A DNA stretch of 64,000 nt from Liolophura sinensis (lineage: Eukaryota > Mollusca > Polyplacophora > Chitonida > Chitonidae), in the NCBI RefSeq assembly GCF_032854445.1, contig NC_088297.1:9758163-9822162 (forward strand), given 5' to 3'. This document shows, piece by piece, positions 10,066-45,500 of the stretch; the stretch's first letter is position 1, and each line of letters starts with the position of its first letter. A program made the position numbers and the translations under genes. The notes beneath the pieces were generated by a model, which saw only the letters and a program-made list of their open reading frames with translations, had not been told where the DNA came from and ran no database searches.

Positions 10066-10083
10066 TACACAACAGTCCGAAGA

Positions 10084-13985: not shown

Positions 13986-14036
13986 CATAAATTACAGATG
14001 CAAAACTTTCTGGAATTACTTTCAACTTAAGACAGA

Positions 14037-15300: not shown

Positions 15301-15309
15301 CATCTAAAA

Positions 15310-15426: not shown

Positions 15427-15438
15427 ATGGCGTCGAGA
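15427..15438 (+). CDS. MIC27 exon 1 (four codons, MASR)
   Basis: ATG in good context (GAAAATGG), then GCG TCG AGA and a consensus donor GTAAGT at 15439. Phase 0 joins exon 2 to give MASRKVLGIGRTHL. It is chosen because exon 2 has no suitable start and this is the best phase-matched ATG-donor pair upstream. Confidence 0.55.
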
Positions 15439-18400: not shown

Positions 18401-21400
18401 CGTACATGTAATCTTATTCCTCTATTTTTCCATCTATTTTTCAGCTACCTTTGTATGGGAATCCAGAAGTTGACAACCAGTACGAGTTTGTTCCAGAGCA
18501 GATATCTCCGTTCAGGGCGAGCATATCTTCCATACGGCAGAGTGTCTGGAAATACCTGGACTCGATAAAGGTGACGCCACTTTGACTGCTGAGGAGATTT
18601 AGTGTCAGTCTTGCAAGCTAAAACACACAGGTTGAATGCCAACTAAGATCAGGCCAAAGGCTTCAGAAGTCTTCTAAATTGTAGACCACTTAATTTCAGC
18701 ACAATACATTGTTACCACAGCTTCTCCCTTTGTCTAGACAACAAGGGGAGGTAACTGACTTTAACAAATTCAGTCTTTCTAAATACAGCGACTTGAGAGA
18801 GTTGACGGTCGAAGGGAAGCCACAGATAAAACTGAACATTAGATTGTTCACTCATGTTAGGTACATGTCAGTAGACATCTGGAAGTCTCAACTTTCTGTA
18901 AATGACATCTAAAATAGCAGCACAATTTTTGCGTCATTATCGGTACTTCCCTTTAACATGACTAACACCTAAACGTACTCAGACTGTCGGCGAGAAGGTC
19001 CGTCCCAGAAATTTCTTATTAAAATTTGCCTCTGTATTTCAGGAAACAACAGATTACGTGGAGCATGTGTACCAGACAGGGAAAGCACATACGCTAGGTA
19101 AGAACTGCTGGTACTGAGCATTTGTAGGGGGAAAGCACATACGCCAGGTAAGAACTGCTGGTTGTGAGCATTTGTAGGGAAAAGCACATACGCCAGGTAA
19201 GAACTGCTGGTCCTGAGCATTTGTAGGGGAAAGCACATACGCCAGGTAAGAACTGCTGGTCGTGAGCATTTGTAGGGGAAAGCACATACGCCAGGTAAGA
19301 ACTGCTGGTCCTGAGCATTTGTAGGGGAAAGCACATACGCTAGGTAAGAACTGCTGGTCCTGAGCATTTGTAGGGGAAAGCACATACGCCAGGTAAGAAC
19401 TGCTGGTTGTGAGCATTTGTAGGGAAAAGCACATACGCCAGGTAAGAACTGCTGGTCGTGAGCATTTGTAGGGGAAAGCACATACGCCAGGTAAGAACTG
19501 CTGGTCGTGAGCATTTGTAGGGGAAAGCACATACGCCAGGTAAGAACTGCTGGTCCTGAGCATTTGTAGGGGATTGCACATACGCTAGGTAAGAACTGCT
19601 TGTCCTGAGCATTTGTAGGGAAAAGCACATACACCAGGTAAGAACGGCTGGTCCTGAGCATTTGTAGGGGAAAGCACATACACCAGGTAAGAACTGCTGG
19701 TCCTGAGCATTTGTAGGGGAAAGCACATACACCAGGTAAGAACTGCTGGTCGTGAGCATTTGTAGGGGAAAGCACATACACCAGGTAAGAACTGCTGGTC
19801 CTGAGCATTTGAAGGGGAAAGCACATACGCCAGGTAAGAACTGCTGGTCCTGAGCATTTGTAGGGAAAAGCACATACGCCAGGTAAGAACTGCTGGTCCT
19901 GAGCATTTGTAGGGGAAAGCAGATACGCCAGGTAAGAACTGCTGGTCCTGAGCATTTGTAGGGGAAAGCACATACGCCAGGTAAGAACTGCTGGTCGTGA
20001 GCATTTGTAGGGGAAAGCACATACGCCAGGTAAGAACTGCTGGTCGTGAGCATTTGTAGGGGAAAGCACATACGCCAGTTAAGAACTGCTGGTCGTGAGC
20101 ATTTGTAGGGGAAAGCACATACGCCAGGTAAGAACTGCTGGTCGTGAGCATTTGTAGGGGAAAGCACATACGCCAGGTAAGAACTGCTGGTCCTGAGCAT
20201 TTGTAGGGGAAAGCACATACGCCAGTTAAGAACTGCTGGTCGTGAGCATTTGTAGGGGAAAGCACATACGCCAGGTAAGAACTGCTGGTCGTGAGCATTT
20301 GTAGGGGAAAGCACATACGCCAGGTAAGAACTGCTGGTTGTGAGCATTTGTAGGGGAAAGCACATACGCTAGGTAAGAACTGCTTGTCCTGAGCATTTAT
20401 AGGAGAAAGCACACATGCTAGGTAAGAACAGCTGTTAAAGAGCATTTGAAGGGGAAAGCGCACATGCTAAGTAATAGCAGCTGGAAACAAGCATTTTAGG
20501 AGAAAGCACACATGGTAGGTAAGAACAGATGGTGCTGTGAGTAGAAGCATGGTTGGCATGGTGCTATAGAGTGGCACAGGATGGTAGTGGAAGTGATTAG
20601 ACATTTGGGGACTGGTTTCCTTAACTGGGCAAGTACTGTCATGGTCGCCCACAATTCAGTGTTGTTGATTCATTCAGGTGTAAGAGAGAAAATGCATGTG
20701 GGGTGGCCTCACAGGTTTTTATTTATTTATTTTTTTTTTAATTCTTTTTAATTGTTACATACAAGTGGTGTTGGTTCAGCGTGGCCTTTATCTTAGGAGA
20801 TTTATCATGTACTTGATAAAAGTTGGTTGTTTACTCAGGGATCAACTTAATCCTTCTCCTTCTGTCATTGAATCTGACTGTCTACGTATATGTACATGTG
20901 ATAAATTGAGTACATAACGTAAGTCAGTTTGATAAAGAAGTGGTATGCTTTGTTTTTGCCCCCAGGTTTTATTGACTATGTTCAGTCTGACCCCGGAATT
21001 CTCCCCCGGGCGGGCGTCATCACCGTAGCTGGGTTGGGAGGCATCGTGGCAGGCTACAGAGGTATGCACAGGAGTACATGTATTTACACTGTTGATATGC
21101 AGGCTTTCTCTCTGATCGTACGTGAGAAGGTCTGACAGCAACCTGCGGATGGTCATGGGTTCTTCCCAGGCTCTGCCTGGTTGCCTCCCACCATAATGTC
21201 GGCTGCCGTCATATAAGTGAAATATTGTTTTGTACAGCATAAAGCACCAATCATAGAAATAAATCATGGAAACAGTTGGTATCTCGATGGTTTTGCACAA
21301 AGAGTTTGTCTGGTGCCCAGCGCCTTGCTGTGGTTTCTGCCAGCTTTGATCCAATGATGAGCTCAGTCAGTGTGGTATGAGTGGAATGCTCCTCGGGGTG

Positions 21401-23651
21401 ATATTGAGTGCCATTCAAAGAAATGCGATGTTGATGATGAATTCGAAAAACTGGGGGCCTCTGTGGCTCCATTGGTTAGCGCGCTAGCGCAGCGTAATGA
21501 CCCAGGAGTCTCTCACCAATGTGGTCGCTGTGAGTTGAAGTCCAGCTCATGCTGGCTTCCTCTCCGGCCGTATGTGGGAAGGTCCGCCAACAACCTGTGG
21601 ATGGTCGTGGGTTCCCACCGGGCTTTCCCCGGTTTCCACCCACCATAATGCTGACCGCCGTATAAGTGAAATATTCTTGAGTACGGCGTTAAACACCAAT
21701 CAAAATCAAAATAAATCTGAAAAATGAGAAATCTGTATGCAGTCTTCACAGCAAAAATCTGATATACTTTATTTCGTCAAAACTTTTTGGTGAAGTTTAG
21801 TTAATAGTCTTATCCGAAACATGAAGGTGTTGGTGTCAAAAGTGTCATTTTAAGGCCCCTATGTGCTTCTGAAAGCGACATTTTACCGGCCAAAGATAGA
21901 AATTCTGTACTGGTGCAAATACATGTTGAACTATTGTGAACAAAGTAGCAGTCATGTCAGTAAAATCCGTGTGTGGTACATGCAGGTGGTATCCTGAGGA
22001 AGGTGACATACAGCAGCGTGGCCATGCTATCAGCCGCATCTCTCTGCTACCCTGACAAAGCCGTGGAGATCACAACATCAGCATACGACACGGTTGTCCG
22101 GGAGGCGCGTGGACTCTGGAAGGGTAAGGGTGGTCAAGTGTAGGAGGAAACTTACGAATGTTGATTTCCACCAGAGGGATCGTGAATAGAGAATGTACTA
22201 GATAGGATATGTTCTCTGGTGGCATGACTGCTCGGCAGTTCCCACCAATCTATTTTTTCTAATTTTTGGGACACCCGGTCAGCTAGTTTTAGCCAGTATA
22301 TATGTACATGTAATTGTAGCAGGAATATTGCGTTCCTTTTTTCTCACATGGTTAGACCACCTAATGAACAACATACTTATATCTTTACTCTTCCAAAAGG
22401 CTGGTAAAGAAATGTAATATTCTTATTTTAACATTACTAGTATCTGTCCCAGAAATGAGAGGATGAGGATGAGACACCTGCTGGTTATATTCTCTGTTAA
22501 ACGAATAATTTTCTGATGTTACTCTACAGTGCTTGTTAACTACCTCTTTTCTCTTTGAGCACATTTATACAGAAACACTGATGTATGGCTGAAAAGAACA
22601 ACCAACATAAAAAAAAACAAAAAAAACAAAAATACACGGTTCGGATGATCTTATTTTATGGCGGAAATTTTCCCAGCTAAACGCCATTTCAAATAAATCA
22701 ATTCATTCACAAAGGTGAAATATCAAACTTTCCCTGTTTTGATTCTGGCTTCATGTCAAGATGCTTGCCAGGCTCTTGATGAAAGACCATAGTTTCCTCC
22801 CTCCTTGATACCAGGCTGCCAACATGTAGTTTTAGTAATGCCTTGAACACCAATGGACATGTAAGTAAATATAAGCGAATATGTAGCCTCTCATCAGTTC
22901 AAGTGTAGGTTTAAAACAAGTAAGAGAGATGGTTATCATTAACTACATGTAAGTACATGTGCTAAATATACCTTGTGAAAATGAAAATAGCTTTTCTTCA
23001 AATTTCACACTTCTTCTGTTTTCTATTTTCATACTTCATTTGGTCTCATTGTCCTCTTTAGGCTATAGTTGTTCAGTTATTCTGACAAATCACAATGTAT
23101 ACAAATTTTCATAATTTTTTCATTTTTTTCAAAGGGGAAGACTCTAAGATAGTGGAAACTGTAAAGGTAGGTTGTTTGCACAGTAAAGCCCAGTTTTATT
23201 GTAGTTTGTAAAAAGTTGCAAGTAATTTTTTGGCAAAGTGTATTTCATTTTAATTTTTCAGCTCTTTGCTGTGAGATTGTTGCGTATTTAAAGAAATGTA
23301 GTTTATGTTTAAAACTATACATGTATATTTTTTTCCTGTCAGTCTTGAAAGTACATTTTTCACAGTGACAAAGTATACCTGTGTCTTATATATATCAGAC
23401 CCTTTCTGGCTCAGATATTTTCATCTTTACACCAACCTGTTAATCATGCCTTAGTAGTTTGTAAAAAGACTTTTCTTTTCTTCGTCTTTTAACAGTCTGA
23501 AATCCCAGCTGAGATCAAACAACCTGATCGTCAGATTCTGAAAAAAATAGAGGAAATAGAAACTCATGTGCTGCAGAAACCGTCAAAAATTGTGGAGGAT
23601 TTCGGACAGAGTAAACCTGAAGACAAGGACATGTACACCACGAGGAGTTAA
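15427..23651 (+). CDS. MICOS complex subunit MIC27/MIC26 (apolipoprotein O family), eight exons
   Basis: Exons are 15427-15438, 17714-17833, 18445-18570, 19043-19097, 20966-21061, 21986-22123, 23135-23166 and 23496-23651: 735 nt, 244 residues plus stop, phases all consistent. MIC26/MIC27 are inner-mitochondrial-membrane proteins of the MICOS complex that shape cristae junctions. Family marks seen: a hydrophobic N-terminal stretch (residues 14-24), YEFVPEQ, Y-QTGKAHT, DPGILPRAGVITVAG and RGGILRKVTYS, leading to SLCYP (two membrane-spanning hairpin segments around 120-135 and 145-159), a charged C-terminal region and the ending PEDKDMYTTRS, very like the vertebrate APOOL ending. Which paralogue it represents is unsure. 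A 49-bp minisatellite carrying the exon 4 donor fills intron 4. ASPH lies downstream in convergent orientation. Confidence 0.92.
15623..15942. repeat. Dispersed 320-bp repeat, copy 2
   Basis: It matches 11511-11828 with few changes and lies in MIC27 intron 1. Confidence 0.88.
16812..16951 (+). mobile_element. SINE family A, 5' truncated
   Basis: It contains GGATGGTCGTGGGTTTCC through the (AAAT)n tail and is followed at once by another family A copy in the same orientation. Confidence 0.88.
16960..17221 (+). mobile_element. SINE family A, older full-length copy
   Basis: Head GAGCCTCCGTGGCCAAGATG, diverged body and a GTCAAATGGAAGAAATAAA tail, directly behind the 16812 copy. Confidence 0.85.
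17714..17833 (+). CDS. MIC27 exon 2
   Basis: Acceptor TTACAG after a T-run, donor GAG|GTAACA. The 40 codons encode KVLGIGRTHLVMLAGVPMAT, then YTVYAAEGSS and a basic stretch. The hydrophobic part may act in mitochondrial targeting or membrane insertion. Confidence 0.88.
18028..18170 (+). mobile_element. SINE family A, 5' truncated
   Basis: Body and tail in MIC27 intron 2, ending in AATTAATATATAT; a (TA)n run follows to 18190. Confidence 0.8.
18445..18570 (+). CDS. MIC27 exon 3
   Basis: Acceptor TTTTTCAG, donor AAG|GTGACG, phase 0 at both ends. The 42 codons encode LPLYGNPEVDNQYEFVPEQI and RQSVWKYLDSIK, the conserved region before the TG motif of the family. Confidence 0.92.
19043..19097 (+). 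CDS. MIC27 exon 4, whose donor seeds a minisatellite
   Basis: Acceptor ATTTCAG, donor CTAG|GTAAGA. It encodes ETTDYVEHVYQTGKAHTL and ends one base into a Gly codon completed by exon 5. The last 17 nt plus the donor form the start of every unit of the following 49-bp array, so 28 or so further copies of this exon end follow downstream. Confidence 0.92.
19081..20533 (+). repeat. 49-bp minisatellite carrying the exon 4 splice donor (~29 units)
   Basis: Each unit reads GAAAGCACATACGCCAG|GTAA, then GAACTGCTGGTCCTGAGC and ATTTGTAGGG. The first unit contains the true end of exon 4 (with CTAG), and nearly all later units keep an intact AG|GTAAGAA donor. Units are nearly identical up to about 20380 and decay after that. 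The array occupies most of the 5' part of intron 4. Confidence 0.95.
20966..21061 (+). CDS. MIC27 exon 5
   Basis: Acceptor CCCCAG, donor AGAG|GTATGC. It encodes FIDYVQSDPGILPRAG and VITVAGLGGIVAGYR, the first membrane segment after the PG-x-x-PR motif. Split Gly codons join both neighbours. Confidence 0.95.
21105..21264 (+). mobile_element. SINE family A, 5' truncated
   Basis: Body and tail copy that starts about 45 bp after the exon 5 donor of MIC27. Confidence 0.82.
21455..21714 (+). mobile_element. SINE family A, near full length
   Basis: Head GGCCTCTGTGGCTCCATTGG to tail CACCAATCAAAATC; MIC27 intron 5. Confidence 0.88.
21986..22123 (+). CDS. MIC27 exon 6
   Basis: Acceptor CATGCAG, donor AAGG|GTAAGG. 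It encodes GILRKVTYSSVAMLSAASL, CYPDKAVEITT and REARGLWK. The CYP motif ends the second membrane segment, as in vertebrate APOO/APOOL. Confidence 0.95.
23135..23166 (+). CDS. MIC27 exon 7 (32 nt)
   Basis: Acceptor TTCAAAG, donor AAG|GTAGGT. It encodes GEDSKIVETVK and restores phase 0. It is supported mainly by phase and splice motifs; the region is variable in the family. Confidence 0.75.
23496..23651 (+). CDS. MIC27 exon 8 (C-terminus)
   Basis: Acceptor TTTTAACAG, 51 codons and TAA. It encodes a helical charged segment (ILKKIEEIETHVLQK) and the terminal SKPEDKDMYTTRS, the best single marker that this is APOOL/MIC27-like. Confidence 0.93.
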   Translation, partial: SEIPAEIKQPDRQILKKIEEIETHVLQKPSKIVEDFGQSKPEDKDMYTTRS

Positions 23652-24521
23652 GGGCAGGGAGAATTTAGTCATTTATGAGTTTGTTAAACAACAGTGAAAT
23701 GTATACAATTAATAGATATTATAATTACTGTGACGTGTCACTTCCTCTACTAGTGAGAAGTAGGGGTGTATTTCAGTGTGCCTGGAAAACTGCAAAAGGG
23801 AAGTGTTCAGCAACCATCAGAGTACCTGTAACCTCTACCCCCTGGCATTCGCAATGTGTTCACCTGTGACCTTTGGTTTTGGAGGTCATTGGTTTTTGCA
23901 TGCCTTGAATCAGTGGTATGCGATATTTTGAAATGTTTGTCCTAATTTGCGATGTTCAAGTTTTATTACTAGGGCCCCAAATTTCAAAAAGCCATTTCTG
24001 ACTGAAGTCCAAATTTAAATCCTTAGGACAAGATTGTAGTAATAATTATTGGTACTGAAGTTGATATTTTTGTACTAATTATTTAAAGAGAGTATTTATG
24101 AGTTGATGGAAATTTTACTTTCCAATGCCCAAAAGTAAGCTCTAAAATCATATTTCACATATTGATTTAATTAAGTCAGAAATCGTTTTGTGGTGTGCCC
24201 CCTTCTCCCTACAAGGGTCTTAAACTGAGGATGGTTGTTTACGATGACTGGTGAAAAACAGTGATTTTTGTCTCTCACAGTGCTCTTGGCTTTTTGTTTT
24301 GGCCAAATTCTGGGCTTTTTAAACATTTTCCACAACTGTAATATTAGGGTGTGTGCTAGGGAATTGGTTTGACCCCAAGAAAATATTATCTTATAGCTTT
24401 GTTAAACACTTGAAAAACAATTGTCCTGGGGTGCAGCTGCTAAAGAAACGTGTTATTTATAAAGTTTGTGATATACAAAATTAAATGATTCTGAACATAT
24501 AAGAGTTGGTTTTTATTTGTT
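23652..24521. other. Probable MIC27 3' UTR and flank
   Basis: AT-rich sequence without a coding signal. No clean AATAAA was found before the SINE at 24522, so the poly(A) site is not placed. Confidence 0.4.
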
Positions 24522-24756
24522 TGGGGGAATGCATGGACTAGTGGTTAGTGCAGCGCAGTGGCTCAGGAACTTACCAATGCAGATGCCGTGAGTTCACGTC
24601 CAGCTCATGCTGGCCTCTTCTCCAGTCTTAAGTGGGAAGGTCTGTCAGCAACCTGCAGATGGTCATGGGTTTTCCACCCACCATGATGCTGATCGCTTTT
24701 GTATAAGTGAAATATTCTTGAGTACGGCGTGAAACACCAATCATGTAAATAAATAT
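24522..24756 (+). mobile_element. SINE family A, diverged
   Basis: Modified head (ATGCATGGACTAGTGGTTAG) with the normal body and AAATAAATAT tail. Confidence 0.78.
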
Positions 24757-24829
24757 GTTTCATGTGCTGTTGGTGCGATACAGTTGTCAGTCAAAGCTTT
24801 TTCGAGCCCTTTCTGGATCATTAAGGGAT

Positions 24830-25095
24830 TGGGCGCAGCAGAGTGGTTAAGTTGCTTGCCATTTAATTACTAAGTGTACATTACTAGACATGGGTTCATG
24901 GCATCCACGACCTTTTGACCTTGGTGACAGTAAATTGGGATGGTGCTTTCTGGTGTGGTCTTACATGGAGGTCATCTGGAGACCCATTTGTGTGACCTAT
25001 ACTTTTATCCCATGGGAGGTCATAGGTTCAAATCCAGCTCTTGCTACATGGTTCTATGAAGCTTTAATTTTGCTGGTTTACTATGAACAATCCGA
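24830..25095 (+). mobile_element. Third tRNA-headed SINE type (family C), copy 1
   Basis: It has CAGAGTGGTTAAGTTGCTTG and AGGTCATAGGTTCAAATCCA, i.e. tRNA-like A and B boxes, then CTTGCTACATGGTTCTATGA. A minus-strand relative lies at 27168-27335. Confidence 0.55.
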
Positions 25096-25133
25096 TTTTC
25101 CTTCACCAATATCATAAAAGTACATAAAACCTT

Positions 25134-25366
25134 GGGGCCTCTGTGGCTAGCATGCCAGTGCGGCAAAATGACCCATGAGTTCAAGTCCAGCTAATGTTAG
25201 CTTCCTCTCTGGCTGTATAAGGGAAGGTCTTCCAGCAATCCGCAGATGAAGAAGGGTAACCCACGAGCTCTGCTCGGTTTCCGCCCACTATAAATATTGT
25301 CCACGGTTATATAAGTGAAATATTCTTGAGTACGTCATACAACACCAATCAAATAAATCAGATAAG
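25134..25366 (+). mobile_element. SINE family A
   Basis: GGCCTCTGTGGCTAGCATGC head with a deletion, normal 3' part and tail. A short diverged fragment with the same tail lies at 25480-25506. Confidence 0.8.
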
Positions 25367-25871
25367 TAAACATTTGATTGAAGGATTGATGTTAAATGCC
25401 ATGCACAAGTACTTTTTAAATTTTTATGACTGCCATCAGGTTTATGCCTGTTCCGAGCTCGATTCAGGGGTACACCACGTAAAACACCAATCAAACAAAT
25501 AAACACATCAATCAGAAACCCCCCCAAAAAGGTGTTTTTCTTTCTGAATCTGAATAACCAGTTGAGAATGGGAGAATGTCCTGGGTTTGAACCAGAGACT
25601 GCCAGGTATCATCTACAGTTGGCATAGAACTATAGGCCAGCTGACATGATGTGACTTTGATCTTCTGCCCATAGACCAGAGCAAAAAACAGAAAGAAGAC
25701 AGTGTTGCAGATTTGCCATGTTAACCTGCAGTGACAAGTTTCAGACAGTCTTACACAAAGTCTGTTTGTCAAATTTTGAGAATTTTTCTGGCCATCAGGT
25801 GAAAACCATAACTTCAAAACTTTGAAGTTAGGAAAACCTAATCCTGTGACAGAGGAGGTCTCAGAAATGTT

Positions 25872-26002
25872 TTTGATTGATCCAGCATTATGGTTAGCAG
25901 AAACCAGGCAGAGCTTCGGGCAAACCCACAACTATCCGCAGATTGCTCGCAGACCTTCCAACGTACTGCCCAAGAGGACGCCAACATGAGCTGGACTTAA
26001 TG
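25872..26002 (-). mobile_element. SINE family A fragment
   Basis: Minus-strand body (CAGCATTATGGTTAGCAG to GAGCTGGACTTAA) lacking both ends. Confidence 0.7.
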
Positions 26003-26587
26003 CCCTATTGTAAACAAATGTGAAATTTCAAATCAAAGGTTAAGGAAAAACTGGAAACAATATATCATCCAAAAATATTTTTAATTACACAAAATACTGA
26101 GTAGTAAACTGTAGCTCATGCTTAACGAATAAATGGTAACATAACTGTTATAGGATATTTCAACTGTCATATGTTGCAGGATAACTGATCTGCATTATAA
26201 TATAGTATGGCTGAATACAGGGTGCAAAGACTGCTGAGCATGCATTCTTCTACAAATGGTTTTCTGAGATACACACACCACCCTTTATAGTAAAACAGCA
26301 GATTTAATCTCACAGATAAGAAAAAACTGATGTTTTCTCATGTCAAATTTACAATATGACATTATGAAATTGTATTACGAAATACCTTAGAGCATAGATG
26401 AGTTTATGTTATTAATCTGCACGTTGTCTATATAGGTCCAATGCTTACACATAGCATTATGTCAAATTATAATTATTATAATATATAAATGTACATGGAT
26501 AAGTGAAATAGTAAGTGCACTGTGCTAAAGAGTTTACCGAATATACATGTGGTCATTTACTGAACTCCATCCGAGTCACGTCTTAAA

Positions 26588-26868
26588 TAATATTTATTTA
26601 TATATTTGATTGGTGTTTTACGCCGTACTCAAGAATATTTCACTTATACGACGGCAGCCAGCATTATGGTGGGTGGAAACCGGGCAGAGCCCGGGGGGAA
26701 ACCACAACCATCCACAGGTTGCTGGCAGACCTTCCCATGTACGGTCAGAGAGAAAGCCAGCATGAGCTGGACTTGAACTTTAGAGCTTGACATGCGACCG
26801 CATTGGTGACAGACTGCTGGGTCATCACGCTGCACTAACGTCCCTAACCAACAGAGCCACGGAGGCCA
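26588..26868 (-). mobile_element. SINE family A, full length
   Basis: Tail TTTATTTATATATTTG through the head ending AGAGCCACGGAGGCC on the plus strand. Confidence 0.9.
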
Positions 26869-26889
26869 CTCTTAAATAATAAAGGCATT

Positions 26890-28560
26890 ATGGTAATGAG
26901 TTTATCAAATAGGCTTGCTCACTGCGTTTTGAGACAAATCATAAATATGTACGCGAAATACAGAAGGTATTTTGGTGAGGAGTTTTGCACACACATGTAC
27001 ATATATCCTACTGTTTACATACAGCATGGTGGTAAACTGTGATATATGTACTTAACACTACACAGCAAATAGTGGACAATTACACACGTCAAAATCAAAA
27101 TAGCACAATGTTTGTTCATTTATTTCACTAAGGCTTAAAGATAAACTTCATAATTTTTAAAATTTTTTTTTTCGACGGCAGTCAGATTTCATTGGTGAAG
27201 AAAACCAGAATAAAGCACTGGCCTTGGCAAAATTAAAGCTTCACAGAACCGTGTAGCAAGAGCTGGATTTGAACCTATGACCTCACTGGTTGTGGACTCA
27301 TTGGCCATGGCAGCTGTTGTAAAGACTAGGTTGGTGTAAAGTTAAAGTGAAGTCAATTCCTGGCAGAATGTCCTTTTCATAATGAATATCTGAGAAATGG
27401 ATCATCGGCCAACAAAGCATTATTGTGTTTCTAAACATGACAAATTGTCCTGTACCATAAAGGGATAACACAAAAGCTGTTATACAGCGTAAGTCGAATC
27501 AGCATTTCGGAAGTCTTGAAGAATTACGCAGGTTTGGACGGGACAGGCTGAGGGACTCTCACAAACTAACCTGCCTAAAAGGTGTTATTTTACGGCATTT
27601 CCTGAATATACACACGTCTATCTCACGGTCAGATTTGTCGACCCAAGGACGCCGTCAGCAGGTACCCACCTTATCTTGCCAAAACCTGTGTGAACTCATC
27701 TAACCACTGAAATGCAGACTCAGCTTATTCAACAAATCTGCTTAATAATGTTTACTGATCTAAACTACTTTCATATACATATTACAGCACCTGTATAAAA
27801 TAAGAAGTTTGAACAATAATCATAACAGCACTCGACATGTTTTTAAAAAGGAATCAACTGTAACCTGTTTATAATTAACATAAAGATTTATTGCCTAAAC
27901 CTGTGTGACAACACTTCAGTGTAACAAATGAGTGTCACAAGCCTGTGTGTCACAACACTTCAATGTGACAAACGAGTGTCACAACACTTGAAACACCAAT
28001 GAAAGAACACTGCACACTATCTTCAAACTGCTCGCACTCGTACATCACACAAAAACAACCACAATTAAAAAGAAAACACATAAATATTTTAATACTAGGA
28101 GTAATATCGCATGTTGTGTAGATTTGGTGTCAAACATTAAACATTAAACATTAAAGCTACCAGGGTTGGAAGGATATATTAACCACTCGCATGTATTCTT
28201 TAAAAAAAAAAAAAAAATCATAAATTCAGCAGACCAACTGAAACCCACTGCTGTTTCACTCACATGTGTATACACATTCAAGAGTTTATCCCTGTTTGCA
28301 CAAAAATACACATGCTTTTACACCTGAATTTATGTGTAATTCACGCTGCAAATACGTTCCCAATTGCATCAAAAATTCACAAATTTCTTGTCACCTGACA
28401 GCCACAACTATGATGGTGGTAGTCTAATTGGAATCCGCACGGTGCATGACTGTCAGACAGTAAGTTTATAAGTGGATTACTGTCACAATAAGTTTACTCT
28501 AAACAAGTACTCATTCCAATGAGTTTTCTTCTGATTTCTTGTTACATGTAACTTGATATT
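26890..28560. other. Convergent intergenic region, no gene recognised
   Basis: AT-rich sequence between the 3' ends of MIC27 and ASPH. It includes a family C SINE (27168-27335, minus strand) and a short tandem of ~38 bp at 27900-28000 (GTGTCACAACACTT). No exon was seen. Confidence 0.5.
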
Positions 28561-28604
28561 TATCCTCCTGATATTCAAATAAAAGAGGTACGGCAAAACT
28601 GACT

Positions 28605-28975
28605 TTTGAAGTTTCACCAACTGAAAGGCATAATTAAAGTATGGCAAAACTGAGTTTTGAAGTTTCACCAACTGAAAGGCATAATTAAAGTATGGCAAAA
28701 TTGACTTTTTGAAGTTTCACCAACTGAAAGGCACAATTGAAGTTTCACCAACTGAAAGGCATAATTAAAGTATGGCAAAATTGACTTTTTGAAGTTTCAC
28801 CAACTGAAAGGCATAATTAAAGTATGGCAAAATTGACTTTTTGAAGTTTCACCAACTGAAAGGCATGATTAAAGTATGGCAAAATTGACTTTTTGAAGTT
28901 TCACCAACTGAAAGGCCTAATTAAAGTATGGCAAAATTGACTTTTTGAAGTTTCACCAACTGAAAGGCATAATTA
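28605..28975. repeat. 52-bp minisatellite, about seven units
   Basis: The unit contains GAAGTTTCACCAACTGAAAG and TAATTAAAGTATGGCAAAA. One unit at 28725-28750 is shortened. It lies beyond the ASPH stop codon, possibly in the 3' UTR or flank. Confidence 0.9.
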
Positions 28976-29659
28976 ATAATTATGTTAATCATAAACACTG
29001 TTACAAGGTAGCTATAACAAAACCCTCTTGACTCAGCCTGTGATATAACTACAACACATTGTACAATTGCTACAATGTTTGTATACAATAACAAAAGCGT
29101 GGGATAAATGTTTGTATATAAATGAATACACATTTTGTATACAGCTATAGGAGCATATATACCACTCCAGATATGTAACCACATCAAGATGCAATTTGAA
29201 CCATATGGGAGGATACAAAAATGCGTCACATATTAGAACTTGGAAAGCAAAAGAAAGTCAAACATGCTAGATGCCCACATAAAAAAAGTCTTTGTTTTAA
29301 TAAAAAATACCTCCATCAGACCACCCCCACCCCGAAAAAAAAAATGACTTAAAAGATTAGAGCTATATGATGAAAGATGCGTTAAAAAACATATAATCTT
29401 ATGAACACAAATGATCACCCAGGCTACATACATACCAGTAATGGTTCTCACAGATGTATAAATCTAACATGCACTTACTGACAGGAACAAGCACTAAATT
29501 TTCAAGTATGAAAAAAGGTATGACAAGTGTCTTTTTAAGACACTTTTTTTTTCACAGGTAACAATGGAAGAATATCAAAACAGAAAATTAATCTCTCCAC
29601 TGACAGCACACAAAACAGCACATCTAAAACTGGAGGAAAAGAAAAAAAAAAAGGGTCAT

Positions 29660-29810
29660 TTAAATTGGAGAGAGATTCGCTTTCTCGTGGTCAGACAACT
29701 CCGGATGCCAGAAGTCCACTATAAGCACCAGCCGGAAAGAGTTGCCATCATGCCAGACTTCATGCTCAAACGAGTCGTCAAATATGATGAACTTCCCTTC
29801 TACCCATTTC
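29660..29810 (-). CDS. ASPH: ASPH exon 12 (C-terminus, second iron His)
   Basis: Minus-strand acceptor GTTACAG, stop TAA at 29662-29660. It encodes KWVEGKFIIFDDSFEHEVW, then FRLVLIVDFWHPEL and the ending LSPI. His526 and Arg536 lie here. Confidence 0.97.
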
Positions 29811-32800: not shown

Positions 32801-34742
32801 ACTGACCCCAGTGACCTCTGCACAGTTCAAAATTTGCTAGCGCTGGCAGTAAAACGAGCATGGGGAGTATTGCACGCGCTGTGAGGAGTCTGTCTGCCTG
32901 TCTCTTTGTTTAATCACATACTTTACCTTGTTCCCAATTTATTTATTTATTTATTTGGTTGATGTTTTACACTGTACTCAAGAATATTTCACTTATATGA
33001 CGGCAGACCTCCCCACTTACGGCCAGAGAGGAAGCCAGCATGAGCTGGACTTGAACTCACATGTTCCCAATTTGATCGAGTTCCTACTACAAAGTAACCA
33101 AATCATTTTCCTTCTTTTTCTCACTCAATCCTATCAACATGTAGAGCTTGAAACTATTTCCAACACATTTCATGTGAACATATGTGATGTAGCCTGGATT
33201 TAAATAGCTATGTTAGATCCCCAGCATAAAAGTAGGCTAGAGTTGCTCCCCTTGCTCTCACCTCTTTGATACAATGTGAACTGTTTCCAATCTCCTTTTT
33301 CTCTCAGGTTTTCTTCTTCAGGTAGGAAAGCTCCACTTTTTAAGTCCATCTGAGCCAGTCCTTCATCCCTGATCACCTTCCAGTTGTCCTCCAACAACTG
33401 GAAATGAGCATCCACACACAATTTATTCATTAATAAAAACACATCTATGGATTCCAAAATGAATAATTCTTTATCACAGCAATCATTCAATGATAAAAAT
33501 TATTTATCCACAGTGTTAGCAGTCCCATTTTCAAAGCCATTCTATGTACATGTTATTTTCAGAAGAAAGGGAGATTATGCTATATGATATAACAAATGAT
33601 CAACTTAGGTTTCACAAAAGTAATAATCGTGCAATCTATTTTGCTTATTATTGTTAAACTAAAAGTAGGGCAACAGGCTAAGCTACGATGATATGGAATA
33701 ATTTCTTGCTTTCCGAAAATAAAATTGTGTGAATATACTTCAGCAACATTTAACAAAATATATCAGCATACTCTTTGATAAAACTTGACTGAATATTTGC
33801 TTATTTCCCTGGTGTTTTATGTCGTACTCAAGAATATTTCACTTATACCATGGACTTGACTTGAAACTGGGACTTGACCAAATAGGCATGAAACTTTTCC
33901 AGACTTCCAGGTGTGTCTTTACATTAGGATGTTTCTTTTCCTGTTGTTTTTTTTTTTCTGTGAAAGTATATGCTAAACTAAATAGTACAAGTGGAATACA
34001 AGCATCCTGTTAACTATCTTATTAAACAAACAAAATTACAACACCTTATTAAACTTTATTAAAATAAACTTAATTAATTATACACCTTGAGATATTTCTT
34101 GTATGTCGTTTGTTCCGGGGTCCACCATGGTCTACCAGTTAAATGATCAACATTGTACAGTGACCTCTGGTACATTGACAGGAACAGCCCAAGGTCAGCA
34201 CCAGCCTTGTACACTTCATATGCCTGTAATGAAGACAAGGAAAGAGAGAGAGAGAGATGAACTGTTACTGATTGACTGATTGACATTGTACAGTGACCTC
34301 TGGTACATTGACAGGAATAGTCCAAGGTCAGCACCAGCCTTGTACACTTCATATGCCTGTGAGGGAGAAAGAGAGAGAGAGATGAACTGTTACTGATTGA
34401 CATTGTACAGTGACCTCTGGTACATTGACAGGAACAGCCCAAGGTCAGCACCAGCCTTGTACACTTCATATGCCTGTGAGGGAGAAAGAGAGAGAGAGAG
34501 ATGAACTGTTACTGATTGATGACTGACATTGTACAGTGACCTCTGGTACATTGACAGGAACAGCCCAAGGTCAGCACCAGCCTTGTACACTTCATATGCC
34601 TGTAATGAAGACAAAGAGAGAGAGAGAGAGATGAACTGTTACTGATTGACTTTGTACAGTGACCTCTGGTACAATGACAGAAATAGTCCAAGGTCAGCAC
34701 CAGCCTTGTACACTTCATATACCTGTGTGAGTGAGTGAGAGT

Positions 34743-34801
<59 letters not shown>

Positions 34802-37800
34802 GAATTGTTACTGATTGATGACTGACATTGTACAGTGACCTCTGGTACGTTGACAGGAACAGCCCAAGGTCAGCACCAGCCTTGTACACTTCACATACCT
34901 GTGTTGGACAGAGAGAAACACGGAGAGGATGTGTTCCTGATTGATTAATTGAATTCATTTAAAAAGACAAGACAATGATAATTACAAACTTGCCTATTTG
35001 GAAAGCTTTCTTCCAGTATAATGTAACAATCACAAACAAACAAACATTACACAGAAGGCCAACCATGTCAAATTCAGGTCAGATAGGAATGGGAGCAGTA
35101 TAGCAGATAAACCAGTGAACACAGCCCAGGACAACAGCTGGATTTGGAGTATACTATAAATCTGAAACATCTGTACCATATTGTTATCGGTGACATGTGT
35201 TTGCCACAATACACACCCCCACTCCTAAGTGCATATACATACATAGCTGTCAATACTTTCCTGAAACAAACTGCCCCAAGCAAATAATATGGATGTGACA
35301 TCGCTGATATCCCCTGGGCCCCAACAAAGCACCGTAGAATGTTATGTTTTAAAACCATTTACTAGATTGAAAATATTCTAAAGAAAAAAACAAACAAAAA
35401 AAAAACTTCATTTTACCAGACAGTGTTAATTGGTCTTCCATATATTTCCTTTCTGATGTCTTCTTTGCCTTTAGCAGCTATGGTAGATACTATTTAACTA
35501 TTTAATTTTGTCACACCAATATGTCGTGTACAACTGACCTCTTCCTTCTGTCCAACCCTCTGCAAGGAATCCCCTAAGTGAAAATAGAACCTTCCATCCA
35601 CAGTGCCCTCTGCCTTGGTGTTGATTCCCTCTCTGAGTAATGGGATGGCCTTAGCCGGGTCATTGTCTGCAGTCTTGTAGATGAAGCCGAGATGTACCAA
35701 AGCAAATCCATTCTTAGGATCAATCTCTAAAGCCTGAAAAATGTAACAATTCAAAACAGGGTACAAAATATCGCAACATCACAGGTATGTTATATGTGGT
35801 CTGTTCTCGGTAAACGATCATGTTCATCATTAAAATGGAATCTTTTTCACCCCCTTTCTTATTTGATCAAGAACAGCAGTTTGGAACATGGATGACCAAA
35901 GATTTACTTTAGTTATAATTCATCTGTTTACTTATTTTGATAAGTGTTTCACATCGTAAGAATATTTCACTTATACAATTGCAGCCAGAAGTGTGGTAGG
36001 AGGAAACCTTGCAAAGCCTGGGAGAAATCGATGGCCATCCACAGGTTCCTGTGAGATCTTCCCACTTACAAGAGGAGGCGAGCATGAGATGGACTTGAAC
36101 ACACAGCATTGGTGGGAGGCTCCGGAGTCATTTCACTGAGCCGCCATGCTAACTATCTCGGCCCCAATGGTACTCACAGCTTTGAATACAGGCCGAGCCT
36201 CCTCAGTCTTCCCCACCATGAGATAGGCCACGCCCAGTTCATTCTTCAGAGCCACATTTTGGGGGAACCTCTGGGTGAGACCACGAAGGGTCTTTACTGC
36301 CTTAGCTGACCAACCTGACATTGCAGAAATTAAGAATTTTCTTTTTTTTTTGCAGAAGTCCATAGCAACCTTCCATAATAACATTTGTCAACAGACGAAA
36401 AGGGAAAAAAGAAAAAAGGAAACAGTTTTGCTATTACCGATTGTATAAAAATTTCAATTAAATCAGTGAAAATAACTGCACTCAAGAATATTTCACTTCT
36501 ACAAAGACAGCCAGCAATGTGGTGGGAGGAACCCGGGCAGAGTTTCAGGGAAGCCCATGGCCATCTGCAGGTTGCTGCCAGACCTTCTGAAGCATAGCCA
36601 GAGAGGAAGCCAGCATGAGCTGGTCTTGAAGTCACGGCAACAGCGTCCCCACTAATGATGTCGTGAATGTGGTAGAAGCATGATATTAAAACAACACAAT
36701 TCAATCAGCAACATAGCATCATTCAAAGTGTCCATTCTCAAGCCTTACTTTTCCATTTTCTCACATCCGGTCACCTACCTCTGAAATTCATGCGCTCAGC
36801 AGCTCTACGGCCTGTTTGTATCACAAGGTCATCTGGGACATTTTCAAGGTCAAGCACAGTGAGGAACGTCTGTATGGCTTCCTCCAGGTAAGTGTTACTC
36901 TGTTTCTTCTCTGCCAGCTTGTCCAGGTTTTCTGCCTTGCCATAAAGAGCACGAGGACTCTTGGGATAGCGCTTCAGTATGGCATTGTACTTCTCCATGG
37001 CCTTTTCAATTTGGCCCTAAATGGAAAAAGAAAGTGAAACAGTATAATTTTTTTTCTTTATTTGATTTGTGTTTTATGCCATACTCAAGAATATTTCACT
37101 TATAGGACTTAGGTCAGCATTATGGTGGGAGGGGCAAACCCACGGCCATCCGCAGATTGATAACAGAACTACAAAGCCGGAGAGGAAGCCAGCATGAGGA
37201 TGAGCTCACATCGATCGCACTGGTGAGAGTTTCCTAGGTCATAGCGTTGAACAATCAAAATATTAAAATGTTACAATGAATGAAGACTGTAAAATCTCAT
37301 ACTGACAGCATGTTTGTTTCATTTATTTATTTATTTATTTGATTGGTGCTTTATGCCATACTCAAGAATATTTCACTTATAAGACAGCGACCAGCGTTAT
37401 GGTGGGAGGAAACCGGGCAGAGCCCAGGGGAAACTGACGACCATCCGTAGGTTGCTGCAACACCTTCCCACGTCAGTTTTATTAACAGTAACAGTAACAA
37501 AGAACATACCAATCAACCGAGCAATTATAACCATAAGCTATGAGCTTAACGCACCAGGGGCAACTTCCACAAAGGAACTGTAAACTGTGTTCATTACAAA
37601 TCACTAGGATCCTGATGATTCTGGACATTGCCATGACATTACTCCATAGTCTTATGATGCTGAGCAATGAAAGGGTTAATATGCAAAATATCGCAGGTTA
37701 ACTTGATTGTAACCATGTAGTTACAACCAACCTTGGTCTACCATGGTTTTATGCCAAAGGTCTCTGATGTCTACCTTTTCTCGGTAACTATCCGCATCAT

Positions 37801-39546
37801 CCAGCTCAGATCGTATCTTTTTATCAGCGCTGTTTGTGATAGACGATTTGGTGTAAGATGTCTTTTTAGGTTGCCGCTGTGTTTGTTCCCTCTGGCCAGC
37901 ATCTTCAGCGGGATTTGAACCAGTAAACTGGAGGAAGTCGGGTATCCCATAATGCAACAGGGTAGAATCTGGGGAACAAAAAAAAGGAAATGATGCCCGG
38001 CTCATACTAAGTCGTGAGTTCGAGTCTCACTTGAGCCAGAATTTTCACTGGTATCAAGACAGTCATTTCAGTGTCAAAAATACAAAAACAAAAATTTAAA
38101 AGCATTATAAACTTGAACCAACTAACTATTTGCCTCTTTACATTTTATCTAAATTTTACACTGAAGACTTCCTGTTTAGACTTTGGAATAAGTTGACATG
38201 CTTTCCAATAACTGAAGATCGGTTTTTATTTTCTTTATGACTTCTTTCTAACATGACTAAGAAAGTTCAGATATCTCAACAAAAACTCTGTGTGCAATGT
38301 TAGAGATTTCAAGAAAGGCACGAGATTATTCAGTTTCTCCACATTCGGCCTGTTTTCCACTCCCCAAACTATTCGGCCTGTTCCCACACCCCCAACCCCT
38401 ATTCGGCCTGTTTGCCACACCCCCACCCCTATTCGGCCTGTTTCCCACACACCCACCCCTATTCGGCCTGTTTCCCACACACCCACCCCTATTCGGCCTG
38501 CCACAACCCGACCCCTATTCGGCCTGTTTGCCACACCCCCACCCCTATTCAGCCTGTTCCCCACACCCCCACCCCTATTCGGCCTGTTCCCCACACCCCT
38601 ATTCGGCCTGTTCCCCACACCCACCCCTATTCGGCCGGTTTGCCACACCTCCACCCTTATTCAGCCTGTTTGCCACACCCTCACTCATATTCAGCCTGTT
38701 TTCCACACCCCCACCCCTATTCGGTTTGTTTCCCACATGCCCACCCCTATTCGGCCTGCTTCCCACACCCTGACCCTTATTCGGCCTGTTTGCCACACCC
38801 CCACCCCTATTTGGCCTGTTTCCCACACCCCCACCCCTATTCGACCTGTTTCCCACACCCCCACCCCTATTCGGTCTGTTTCCCAAACCCTCACCCCTAT
38901 TCGGTGTGTTTACCACACCCCCACCCCTATTCGGTCTGTTTCCCACACCTCCTTCCCTATTCAGCTTATTTGCCACACCCCCACCCCTATTCAGCCTGTT
39001 CCCCACACCCCCGCCCCTATTTGGTCTGTTCCCCACAGAGTTCTCTTTAAACAAGCTTGTCACCGCTGCAAGCTAATTAATTTCCGCAGGGACCTTAAGA
39101 AAACTGTACTTTAAAGCCAGTTTTATCCTTCAAAGCAAAACTTGAAAAATTTCTTTGTACTGTTATATATTATTACACATCATAATCTGCACATTAAGAA
39201 ATAAAACCAAAGTATTTCATGTATCCTTTAATGTAATTTTCACATGGCATCTGGGTTATACTGTGATAAGGTCATGTTATAATTACAGTGCAAGTCATTC
39301 AAATGTAAAAAAAAGTTTACGAAAATTTTTTGAAAGTAGGCCTACTTGTAAAAAAAAAAGAATTCTCCAAATATGCCTTATTTATAAATATGCCTTATTT
39401 ATAAATATAAACATACATGCGTATAAATGGTGAATAGATCATATACTTAAATTGCTTGTATCTAAATAACCAGGTTTTATGAAATTTCTTTGGTTTTTTC
39501 CCCTTTAGCAAACGTGTCTTGCTTAAGCAACACAATATTATATTAT

Positions 39547-39589
<43 letters not shown>

Positions 39590-42500
39590 TGACTTTTTTC
39601 GAGAAATACTCCATGTGGGACAAAAAACAACTGACAATAGCAATTTACTGAGCTTGAGAAGATTTGTGAAACTGTGCACAGATGTTTCATACTCACGTAT
39701 CACAGATGCTTCATACTCATGCATCACAGATGTTTCACACTCACATATCACAGATGTTTCACACTCACGCATCACAGATGTTTCATACTCAGGTATCACA
39801 GATGTTTCATACTCAGGTATCACAGATGCTTCACACTAAGGTATTACATGTTTCATACTCACATTTCATACTCACGTATCACAGATGTTTCATACTCACT
39901 TATCACAGATGTTTCACACTCACATTTCATACTCACATATCATAGATGTTTCATACTCACATGGCACAGATGTTTCATACTCACGTATCACAGATTGGGC
40001 ATCTTCATTGAGAAAGTAAGCAGCCACAAGACCACCTGTTGCCACGGTAACCACAAGCAGACATAATTTCAAGGGGGACAACCCAGCAGGACTCTCAGTG
40101 GTCCCAGAGTGCCGGTCTCCTCTACTGTGATAACTGCTGCCATTCCTTAAAGCCTTCCCAGAATCATTTTCTGTGCAGAAACATGAAAATGTGCAGAAAA
40201 TGAATTACATGTACAAATTAATGTGGTTGATATAAACATGTATTACGGTCTCGCAGAGAAGAAAAATGACTCCATGTCACACTACATGTAGAACTGACAA
40301 CAATTCTGCAAACTTATGCCTGAGCATAGCAAAACCAACCATAGCAGGTCAGGGCCACAGGCTATCTCAAAACACATTTAACATTCCACGCCCCAAACTG
40401 TGACATTGTGGCTGTTCATAAAGAACTTCTGAAAATGAAAGTCAAATTGGTGAATGAAAGAAATCCGTATGTAATCTTGCCTTTTTATTGGTAGACCATA
40501 ATATTTTTGTTTAATTTACTTGTTAGTTTTAATTAATACAGCTTGTTTAGTTTGAGCAGCCAACCATTTGGGTTCCAAACATTCTCCAGAACTGAAATGA
40601 TTCTAAGAATGGACATACAGGTGCCAGAATTTGGTGACAAACATTTGTCACAAATGTACCAGTCTGTATGTATACTTGCATGTAGGTTTTGTTTCTTGTT
40701 TGCATTTAGGAACATACTACCTATTGGTAAAATATTCTGGTATCTAGAAGTGGCATTATAGGTATACATGTATCTGTAAACCCGTAATCGTATTATAAAG
40801 ACTGATTGAATTTTGTAGGCTGCATTTTCTTGCCACTACGGTCATGATCAGAGTAATTTTGTAGGTTGCATTTTCTTACCACTACTGTCTTGACCAGAGT
40901 AATTTCGTAGGCTGCATTTTCTTACCACTACTATCATGATCATAGTAATTTTGTAGGCTGCATTTTCTTACCACCACTACCATGATCAGAGTAATTTTGT
41001 ACGCTACATTTTCTTACCACTACTGTCATGATCAGAGTAATTTTGTAGGCTGCATTTTCTTACCACTACTGTCATGATTGGAGTAATTTTGCAGGCTGCA
41101 TTTTTTTACCACTACTGTCATGATCAGGGTAATTTTGTAGGCTGCATTTTCTTACCACTACTGTCATGATCAGAGTAATTTTGTAGGCTGCATTTTCTTA
41201 CCACTACTATCATGATCAGAGTAATTTTGTAGGCTGCATTTTCTTACCACTACTATCATGATCAGAGTAACTTTGTAGGCTGCATTTTCTTACCACTACT
41301 ATCATGATCAGAGTAATTTTGTAAACTGCATTTTCTTACCACTACTATCATGATCAGAGTGATTTTGTACATACCATTTTCTTACCACTACTATCATGAT
41401 TGGAGTAATTTTGTATGCTGCATTTTCGTACCACTACTATCATGATCAGAGTAATTTTGTACATACCATTTTCTTACCACTACTATCATGATCAGAGTAA
41501 TTTTGTAGGCTGCATTTTCTTACCACTACTATCATGATCGGAGTAATTTTGTAGGCTGCATTTTCTTACCACTACTGTCATGATCAGAGTAATTTTGTAA
41601 ACTGCATTTTCTTACCACTACTATCATGATCAGAGTGATTTTGTACATACCATTTTCTTACCACTACTATCATGATTGGAGTAATTTTGTAGGCTGCATT
41701 TTCGTACCACTACTATCATGATCAGAGTAATTTTGTACGTACCATTTTCTTACCACTACTATCATGATCAGAGTAATTTTGTAGGCTGCATTTTCTTACC
41801 ACTACTATCATGATCGGAGGAATTTTGTAGGCTGCATTTTTTTAACCACTACTGTCATGATCAGAGTAATTTTGTACGTACCATTTTCTTACCACTACTA
41901 TCATGATCAGAGTAATTTTGTAGGCTGCATTTTCTTACCACTACTATCATGATCAGAGTAATTTTGTAAGCTGCATTTTCTTACCACTACTGTCATGATC
42001 AGAGTAATTTTGTAGGCTGCATTTTCTTACCACTACTGTCATGATCAGAGTAATTTTGTAGGCCGCATTTTCTTACCACTACGGTCATGACCAGAGTAAT
42101 TTTGTACGTACCATTTTCTTACCACTACTGTCATGATCAGAGTACCTTTGTAAGCTGCAATTTCTTACCACTACTATCATGATCAGAGTAATTTTGTATG
42201 CTGCATTTTTTTACCAGTACTGTCATGATCAGAGTACTTTTTTAGGCTGCATTTTCTTACCACTACTGTCATGATCAGAGTAATTTTGTACGCACCATTT
42301 TCTTACCACTACGGTCATGACCAGAGTAATTTTGTAGGCTGCATTTTCTTACCACTACTGTCATGATCAGAGTAATTTTGTACGCACCATTTTCTTACCA
42401 CTACTGTCATGATCAGAGTAATTTTGTAAGCTGCGTTTTCTTACCACTACTATCATGATCAGAGTGATTTTGTACATACCATTTTCTTACCACTACTATC

Positions 42501-45500
42501 ATGATTGGAGTAATTTTGTAGGCTGCATTTTCTTACCACTACTATCATGATCAGAGTAATTTTGTAGGCTGCATTTTCTTACCACTACTATCATGATCAG
42601 AGTAATTTTGTAAGCTGCATTTTCTTACCACTACTATCATGATCAGAGTGATTTTGTACATACCATTTTCTTACCACTACTATCATGATTGGAGTAATTT
42701 TGTAGGCTGCATTTTCGTACCACTACTATCATGATCAGAGTAATTTTGTAGGCTGCATTTTCTTACCACTACTATCATGATCAGAGTAATTTTGTAGGCT
42801 GCATTTTCTTACCACTACTATCATGATCGGAGTAATTTTGTAGGCTCCATTTTCTTACCACTACTGTCATGATCAGAGTAATTTTGTAGGCTGAATTTTT
42901 TTACCACTACTGTCATGATCAGAGTAATTTTGTACGTACCATTTTCTTACCACTACTATCATGATCAGAGTAATTCTGTAGGCTGCATTTTCTTACCACT
43001 ACTATCATGATCAGAGTAATTTTGTAAGCTGCATTATCTTACCACTACCATCATGACCAGAGTAATTTTGTAGGCTGCATTTTCTTAGCACTACTATCAT
43101 GATCAGAGTAATTTTGTAGGCTGCATTTTCTTAGCACTACCATCATGACCAGAGTAATTTTGTAGGTTGCATTTTCTTACCACTACCATCATGACCAGAG
43201 TAATTTTGTAGGCTGCATTTTCTTAGCACTACTATCATGATCAGAGTAATTTTGTAGGCTGCATTTTCTTACCACTACCATCATGACCAGAGTAATTTTG
43301 TAGGTTGCATTTTCTTACCACTACCATCATGACCAGAGTAATTTTGTAGGTTGCATTTTCTTACCACTACCATCATGATCAGAGTAATTTTGTAGGTTGC
43401 ATTTTCTTACCACTACCATCATGATCAGAGTAATTTTGTAGGTTGCATTTTCTTACCACTACCATCATGATCAGAGTAATTTTGTAGGTTGCATTTTCTT
43501 ACCACTACTGTCATGATCAGAGTAATTTTGTAAAGAACACTGTTCTACAGTTTTAAATGCAGCAGAGTTTATACATTTTGGTTTTTGATTGGTACAATGT
43601 GAGTAGGTCTGAACTATCAAGTATATTTGGGTGAGTTTTTGAATAGGCGTTGTCCCTGACCACAAAAATAAAAATGAGGAAAGGTTATATTTGTTTTACA
43701 TATATTAACACCTAGTTTTCTCAAGAAATATGGCCGGTCATATAAATATACAATTAGCATACAGTAAGCACATGTAGACTTGCATACAACATGTATGTGT
43801 CTATGTCAACTTTGTGCCAATTTATATGTATATGGAATATAAAATATGAAATAATAGGAAGCACAATTTAATAATCAGAATACATGAATATTCATCATGT
43901 TAATCAGAATACATGAATATTCATCATGTTAATCAGAATATTATTCCTCAACCTTTTTGACCCGTATCAGTATAATGGCTCAGGCGGGGCGGCTTACTTG
44001 CCTTCGGTAAGGCATCTCAGTGAAGCAGCACTAGATCAAAGAGCGGTGGAAATCCGTCCTGCAACAAGGAGGCACATCACATGCACACTAGGGATTCCTT
44101 CGTAGTCATATGACTGAAAAATTGTTAAGTAAGACTTTAAACCCCAAGCACTCAATCACTCACTCCTCAACCTTTTCATATATGCAAGACCAAGTGCAAT
44201 TTATGCATACTGTTAATTTGATCTTGGAGACAAAACTACATTGGTTGGAGTGGCCAATTTCAGGGCTTCACCAAAAGTATATCTTTTTATCAGTGATCAC
44301 AAAATAATAACCTCAGAATTTGCTAGAATAACACCTTGCAAAGGTTGAAGAAAAGGTTGAAGAATTACAGTAGGTGCGTTTATACAGATAGGCCATGTAC
44401 TTATAGTTAGATGTCACAAAACCTACTTGTATATACGTAAGTATTTCTTCCCAGCCAGAGTTATTAATAATAACCAAAAGCCTAGGATATAACATATCCC
44501 AGTATAAACACATACATATACTTGAACATGTTCCTATTAACATGCACATGTTGTGAATTACCTCTGACCCATAAACAGATTATTATCAGTGGCAGCTCAG
44601 TGTGTAGCTAAGACTTCTCATGACAAGTACATCCGAGAATGCTATGCCGTGTTGCACAATATCTGCATGAAGTGGAACTCGCTAGCAAATTTTAAGAGAG
44701 CTGCAGAGGCACAGGAAGTTTTTATCTTGAATATATGTACGCTTTCGCTGAGTTCAGTATGTTCAGAATAGGACTCGGGCACTATTAGAGTGAAAATTAC
44801 ATGGAAGACTGAAAGCTTTTCCGTATAAACACGTTTATTTTCTTGCACATACATACTGTATAATACTGTTTTTAAGGGAAGGAAATGCGGCTCGGTAGAA
44901 ATGACGCCAAATTGCTGAACATCAGGTTATGGGTTCGGTATCAGTTTTGGAATAAGTCAGTACCAGTCATGGGATATATGCCAGTACCAGTCACCGGATA
45001 TGCCAGTACCAGCCATGGGATATCCTAGTACCAGTCATGGGATATGCCAGTACCAGCCTTGGGATATGCCAGTACCAGTCATGGGATATGCCAGTACCAG
45101 TCATGGGATATGCCAGTACCAGCCTTGGGATATGCCAGTACCAGCCACGGGATATCCTAGTACCAGTCATGGGATATGCCAGTACCAGTAATGGGATATG
45201 CCAGTACCAGTCATGGGATATATGGCAGTACCAGTCATGGGATATATACCAGTACCAGTCACAGGATATGCCAGTACCAGCCACGGGATATGCCAGTACC
45301 AGTCATGGGATATCCCAGAACCAGTCATGGGATATGCCAGTACCTGTCATGGGATATGCCAGTACCAGTCATGGGATATGCCAGTACCAGTCATGGGATA
45401 TGCCACTACCTGTCATGGGATATGCCAGTACCAGCCACGGGATATCCTAGTACCAGTCATGGGATATGCCAGTGCCAGTCATGGGATATATGCCAGTGCC

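Follow-up and report, generated by a model that had tools for sequence, protein, structure and literature searches.

Minisatellite arrays that repeat exon ends and splice sites in MIC27, ASPH and sampled genes of the chiton Liolophura sinensis

The window analysed here, a 64,000-nucleotide (nt) stretch of the Liolophura sinensis genome (assembly GCF_032854445.1, contig NC_088297.1, positions 9,758,163 to 9,822,162), holds two genes, MIC27 and ASPH, in which tandem arrays repeat an exon end together with its splice site. Gene models for both were reconstructed from the sequence, and the identities proposed in a preliminary description of this DNA are upheld by Pfam and, for ASPH, by sequence matches in the PDB: the joined MIC27 exons match ApoO (1.7e-17), and the joined ASPH exons match Asp_Arg_Hydrox (3e-33) as well as aspartyl/asparaginyl beta-hydroxylase chains (1e-131). 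We count 17 exons in the window (6 MIC27, 11 ASPH; first exons not identified). Tandem Repeats Finder (TRF) recovers the four arrays, with periods of 49, 46, 24 and ~117-125 bp. The features, with two further arrays for comparison, are as follows.

19043..19097, plus strand: MIC27 exon 4, 55 bp long, with the final 19 bp in the array; from the sequence and the Pfam ApoO match of the joined exons
19079..20537, plus strand: 49-bp array at the MIC27 exon 4 donor; TRF, 29.8 copies; 29 extra donor copies
43503..43544, minus strand: putative ASPH exon 2; phase fits exon 3, without homology
40809..43532, minus strand: 46-bp array at the putative exon 2 donor; TRF, 59.2 copies; 58 extra copies
39985..40170, minus strand: ASPH exon 3, with a hydrophobic, membrane-like segment; from the sequence
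39677..39995, minus strand: 24-bp array at the ASPH exon 3 donor; TRF, 13.3 copies; 13 extra copies
34086..34223, minus strand: ASPH exon 8, 74 bp of its acceptor end in the array; from the sequence and the PDB match
34150..34901, minus strand: array of ~117-125-bp units at the ASPH exon 8 acceptor; TRF from 34150 to 34754, a further copy to 34901 read by eye; 5 extra copies
38343..39037, no strand given: 30-bp array in ASPH intron 3, away from junctions (comparison); TRF
44958..45585, no strand given: 22-bp array upstream of putative ASPH exon 2, at no known junction (comparison); TRF

MIC27 exon 4 ends at 19097, within the first 49-bp unit, and the array takes in its donor. ASPH exons 3 and 8 likewise lie at the edges of their arrays, which include the donor and 11 bp of exon 3, and the acceptor and the 74 bp of exon 8, respectively; by side, the window has three donor arrays and one acceptor array. 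Putative ASPH exon 2 has both an acceptor and a donor in a phase compatible with exon 3 and is a plausible exon, but it has no homology support, which counts against the fourth case and leaves three of the four junctions secure. The claim of four arrays repeating exon end and splice site is therefore partly confirmed, standing for MIC27 exon 4 and ASPH exons 3 and 8. The four units are not related to each other in any clear way, as had been proposed (the observed score was reached by 7 to 181 of 200 shuffles in six pairwise comparisons). Growth always into the intron is what the window arrays show, although this direction is partly forced, because an array growing into an exon would destroy it. 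A degenerate 24-bp array, earlier listed as lying away from any exon, is probably the exon 3 array counted a second time; the remaining 24-bp TRF rows are one at 38566-38622, which belongs to the 30-bp array, and one of two copies at 29978-30025.

The frequency of such arrays was assessed in 198 exons located by Pfam matches in the same genome (632 scaffolds, total length 609,464,459), comprising 51 myosin, 74 kinesin, 55 kinase and 18 dynein exons, under a sampling design written down before any sampled DNA was read. Myosin and kinesin exons were taken in listing order where the open frame was below 300 amino acids (51 of 81 and 74 of 132 matches listed, the kinesin entries after the 85th being unused), kinase exons where it was below 150 amino acids (55 among those listed of 152 matches), and dynein exons as the best 18 of 86 matches; three of these dynein exons fall in a single long open frame that has few introns. 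Some genes contribute several exons, and some neighbouring stretches overlap. Sampled loci extend to 400 bp from the match, with longer arrays counted in part, and junction positions are the edges of the hidden Markov model (HMM) match save those set by hand, so an edge may lie some bases inside the exon. Arrays of at least 1.8 copies were kept, against 2 in the advance design.

In the first 160 exons TRF finds 53 merged arrays in 46 loci. The pre-set loose criterion, an array no more than 25 bp away from the HMM match, takes in 18 sides in 17 of the 160 exons. Seven of these sides were dropped, the splice site lying outside the unit (L020 on both sides, L031, L068, L141, L158 and L161), and one array beyond the 25-bp limit (L021) does include the splice site, giving a strict total of 12: ten donor arrays (L014, L021, L037, L051, L070, L087, L103, L130, L148 and L151) and two acceptor arrays (L026 and L058). 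A planned replicate of 38 exons contributed two more donor arrays (L163 and L167) and one more acceptor array (L215). Overall, junction-spanning arrays occur in 15 of the 198 exons (7.6%, Wilson interval 4.6-12.1%), 12 at donors and 3 at acceptors (binomial P = 0.035), at similar rates across families (myosin 5/51, kinesin 5/74, kinase 4/55, dynein 1/18). Junction arrays are a real, frequent structure of a known kind, and these figures suggest that the MIC27/ASPH window is a rich example of a common structure. As a separate impression, the dynein loci (L203-L220) look array-poor compared with myosin and kinesin, with nine array rows, one array appearing twice, in 18 partly overlapping loci of ~3.2 kb.

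The preliminary description offered either seeding at splice sites or tolerance of the extra copies as the cause, and proposed a check for an excess of arrays at junctions, which we ran on the exon sample. A TRF-independent profile, scoring in 30-bp steps whether a 26-bp window recurs nearby (180 exons, dynein loci excluded), has no peak at the exon edge on either side. On the donor side duplicated windows rise from 2/169 at 60 bp inside the match to 10/180 at the edge and 28/180 at 300 bp into the intron, and on the acceptor side the corresponding values are 1/169, 1/180 and 22/180. The edge is thus less duplicated than the intron 300 bp away (donor P = 0.003, acceptor P = 3e-6), and donor edges are more duplicated than acceptor edges (P = 0.011). 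In the 160 exons the near edges of arrays, counted per 50 bp, number 2, 1 and 8 inside exons and 11, 8, 4, 7, 4 and 8 outward, a fairly even spread of exon-facing edges across the boundary, and arrays that do not span the junction are divided 20 to 21 between donor and acceptor sides. Because the profile climbs from exon to intron without an edge peak, the data favour tolerance and do not support a claim of strong seeding; the two causes put forward in the preliminary description are thus partly supported. They suggest frequent arrays that are filtered at exons, the filter being leakier at donors than at acceptors.

We therefore regard it as likely that array formation is largely blind to splice sites and that junction arrays are tolerated asymmetrically. 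A founding minisatellite unit would straddle an exon-intron boundary by chance, giving what has been termed a 'mirage' in amphioxus; the flat profile points to tandem arrays forming very often and largely regardless of splice sites, and those that damage an exon would be lost. An array running from the exon end into the intron would leave one complete copy of the exon and splice site at its edge, and would be tolerated because the extra copies leave with the intron. Donor arrays would be tolerated better than acceptor arrays, the probable reason being that the true donor is the first copy transcribed, next to a defined exon; at an acceptor the extra copies would all lie upstream of the true site and be transcribed before it. 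Extra donors would then drift neutrally with their strength kept, position deciding which is used.

Several points weigh against this explanation. The strict cases were assigned by eye, and the use of the first donor is something that we infer from sequence. Uniform seeding predicts 6.6-8.8 junction-spanning arrays in the 160 exons, where 12 are seen (P = 0.04-0.18), and for donors alone the figures are 10 seen against 3.3-4.4 expected (P = 0.002-0.015, with the split chosen after seeing the data). The donor-to-acceptor asymmetry relative to background, 10:2 against 20:21 in the first 160 exons (P = 0.048), weakens to 12:3 against 20:21 with the replicate (P = 0.065). Genome-wide word counts also favour donors: the donor word CAGGTAAG has 1248 triplet and 30137 single matches and the reversed word 336 and 14616, a ~1.8-fold difference in triplets after normalising by single words, and the first 4.3 Mb of C1 holds 10 donor-word arrays against 2 control-word arrays.

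The donor excess and the word counts are what would be expected if array seeding were preferred at splice donors, for example through nicks, R-loops or stalled forks at exon ends. We nevertheless consider this unlikely, since the profile lacks an edge peak and acceptors show no excess in the 160 exons (2 seen against 3.3-4.4 expected under uniform seeding), while inspection by eye places a plausible coding exon at the 5' edge of one only (L188) of the ten donor-word arrays (L183-L192). Because matches within an array are not independent and nine of the ten arrays lie at no such exon, the word test was left out as support for anchoring; the counts therefore reflect something other than anchoring at junctions. 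The ten control-word arrays (L193-L202) were run through TRF only. Seeding bias as the main cause is thus weakened by the flat-edge profile, but the excess figures still stand, and by the cruder tests donors could still be in two- to threefold excess, making a moderate donor seeding bias possible. The stretch of C1 from 0.49 to 4.3 Mb that carries L183-L192 is itself dense in minisatellites, its ten donor-word arrays lying within less than 4 Mb and one of them exceeding 6 kb with a 54-bp unit.

Across the 15 donor arrays, 12 from the sample and 3 from the window, there are 165 extra donors; 150 keep GT, and 116 combine an intact GT with a consensus match no worse than that of the real donor. 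In the MIC27 array GT is kept in 27 of 29 extra donors, with 26 equal to or better than the real donor, and in the putative ASPH exon 2 array in 54 of 58, with 48 no weaker than the authentic donor. If transcripts are normal, such equally strong extra donors would mean that the choice of the first donor cannot rest on strength alone, and position would decide. Retention of GT in the extra copies is 0.891 against 0.872 for neighbouring dinucleotides (P = 0.82), measured against the extra copies' own consensus in the 10 of 15 arrays with at least five extra copies. With GT surviving at about the rate of other dinucleotides, the extra donors seem neutral. Selection keeping them had appeared in a comparison with the authentic copy (0.927 against 0.720, P = 0.002) and was rejected, the authentic copy having itself diverged and the effect vanishing with the copies' own consensus. 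Among extra acceptors in four arrays AG is kept in 27 of 43 (12/12, 4/6, 6/20 and 5/5), the ASPH exon 8 array keeping all five. The low value belongs to the acceptor-side array L215:91-1536, where 10 of 14 copies shown have CTTGAT in place of the true TTTCAG; selection may have removed the signal, or the founding copy may already have been in this state.

That the arrays are functional, supplying alternative donors that add peptide repeats or regulate splicing, finds its best case in the ASPH exon 3 array, where the 24-bp period is a multiple of three and, of 13 extra copies, 9 keep GT and 2 of these 9 are in an open frame. A minisatellite of the human gene G1P3/IFI6, with a 12-bp unit and multiple splice donor sites, reportedly gives in-frame variants and resembles the chiton arrays in repeating a donor site. 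It differs from them in that 145 of the 150 intact extra chiton donors are not in frame and open; an open in-frame extension is offered by 5 of the 150 and by none of the 27 in MIC27. Together with GT being no better kept than its neighbours, this makes a function for the arrays very improbable.

The window exceeds the sample only marginally, at 4/17 against 15/198 (Fisher P = 0.0495, binomial P = 0.035), and at 3/17 (binomial P = 0.13) when ASPH exon 2 is set aside; the window was moreover chosen for the feature. Coincidence in a repeat-rich window, with ASPH exon 2 miscalled, would account for these numbers, but 15 of 198 exons elsewhere have a like structure and form a real class even if the clustering in the window is chance, and we give this explanation little credence.

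The arrays correspond closely to the mirages of amphioxus, which the covered parts of two reports (PMC3087553, PMC3902484) describe in Adh3, globins, TnC and PGBD5 as minisatellite-like repeats with a unit that crosses an exon-intron boundary. The amphioxus repeats affect donors as well as acceptors, retain splice signals in many copies though not in all, leave splicing regular by reverse-transcription PCR and are unstable in length. The chiton arrays share the boundary-spanning unit (in the window and in the 15 of 198 sampled exons), the involvement of both boundaries (12 donor and 3 acceptor in the sample, 3 and 1 in the window) and the partial retention of signals (GT in 150 of 165 extra donors, AG in 27 of 43 extra acceptors). 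They differ in occurring in a mollusc, in having a sampled frequency (15/198) and a donor bias, and in being known here from the genome sequence of one assembly. A model of intron gain by tandem duplication across proto-splice sites (Rogers model; Zhuo 2007; both as cited in the covered part of PMC3087553) shares the duplication across splice signals, though no new intron is shown in the chiton. Ongoing intron birth through tandem duplication across AG|GT, a model discussed for amphioxus globins in the same covered part of PMC3087553, would explain units that bear splice signals, but nothing in the window requires a new intron and we think it most improbable. Tandem repeats altering gene structure in human are the subject of a related study (PMC2812944, in the part covered). 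A literature search on minisatellites and tandem repeats at splice sites and on chiton and mollusc genomes, most subscription journals lying outside it, found no mollusc report, and the covered parts of two chiton genome papers (PMC11068029, PMC12005716) do not discuss such arrays. Both the frequency of mirages in a mollusc and their asymmetry between donors and acceptors seem to be new.

Elsewhere in the window, the MIC27 intron holds a dispersed repeat at about 18675-18960; part of a query spanning 18450-19080 has at least 39 further genome matches at 75-82% identity (40 of 444 candidates scored). A dispersed repeat (AATATTC..TGAGTA..GTAAACACCAATC) occurs several times in the window, and a 43-bp array at 9336-10062 has a unit resembling its end; some arrays may therefore start from the tails of dispersed repeats. 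A 56-bp array at 13325-13545 (95% matches by TRF) has a unit that is open and protein-like in one frame, with no exon junction recognised nearby. Two Fibrinogen_C matches lie on the plus strand at 3722-6478, adjoining a 200-base N gap at 2718-2917.

The assembly was published under the name Liolophura japonica (PMC11068029), since corrected (PMC12441733). According to the parts of PMC11068029 covered, it is a HiFi assembly with a mean read length of 8.3 kb, so arrays of 0.3-2.7 kb should be resolved. The repeat table in the same parts assigns 0.08% to simple repeats, microsatellites and RNA and 14.04% to unclassified repeats, and minisatellites are probably hidden in the latter. Public RNA-seq of five tissues (SAMN35319765-SAMN35319769) also exists for this chiton (same source and parts); the HiFi reads have accession SRX20411988. 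We tentatively extend our explanation to at least 10,000 mirages per chiton genome, whose asymmetry would reveal a general rule, with a spliceosome that ignores tens of equal downstream donors, upstream repeated acceptors that are not tolerated, and donor-specific seeding on top, a combination we think possible but doubtful; the total, 10,000-27,000, is a rough extrapolation that rests on four gene families, takes the gene number from the publication and assumes exons of 170 bp.

If true, this would amount to a natural genome-wide experiment on splice-site choice. Models of splicing have to account for one donor being picked among up to ~60 near-identical ones, and genes such as chiton ASPH and MIC27 are natural test cases for that choice. 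Arrays of this kind may also lead annotation pipelines to put exon ends in the wrong place. Should the frequency in the sample apply to the whole genome, mirages would be no amphioxus oddity but a large reservoir from which introns and exons could arise.

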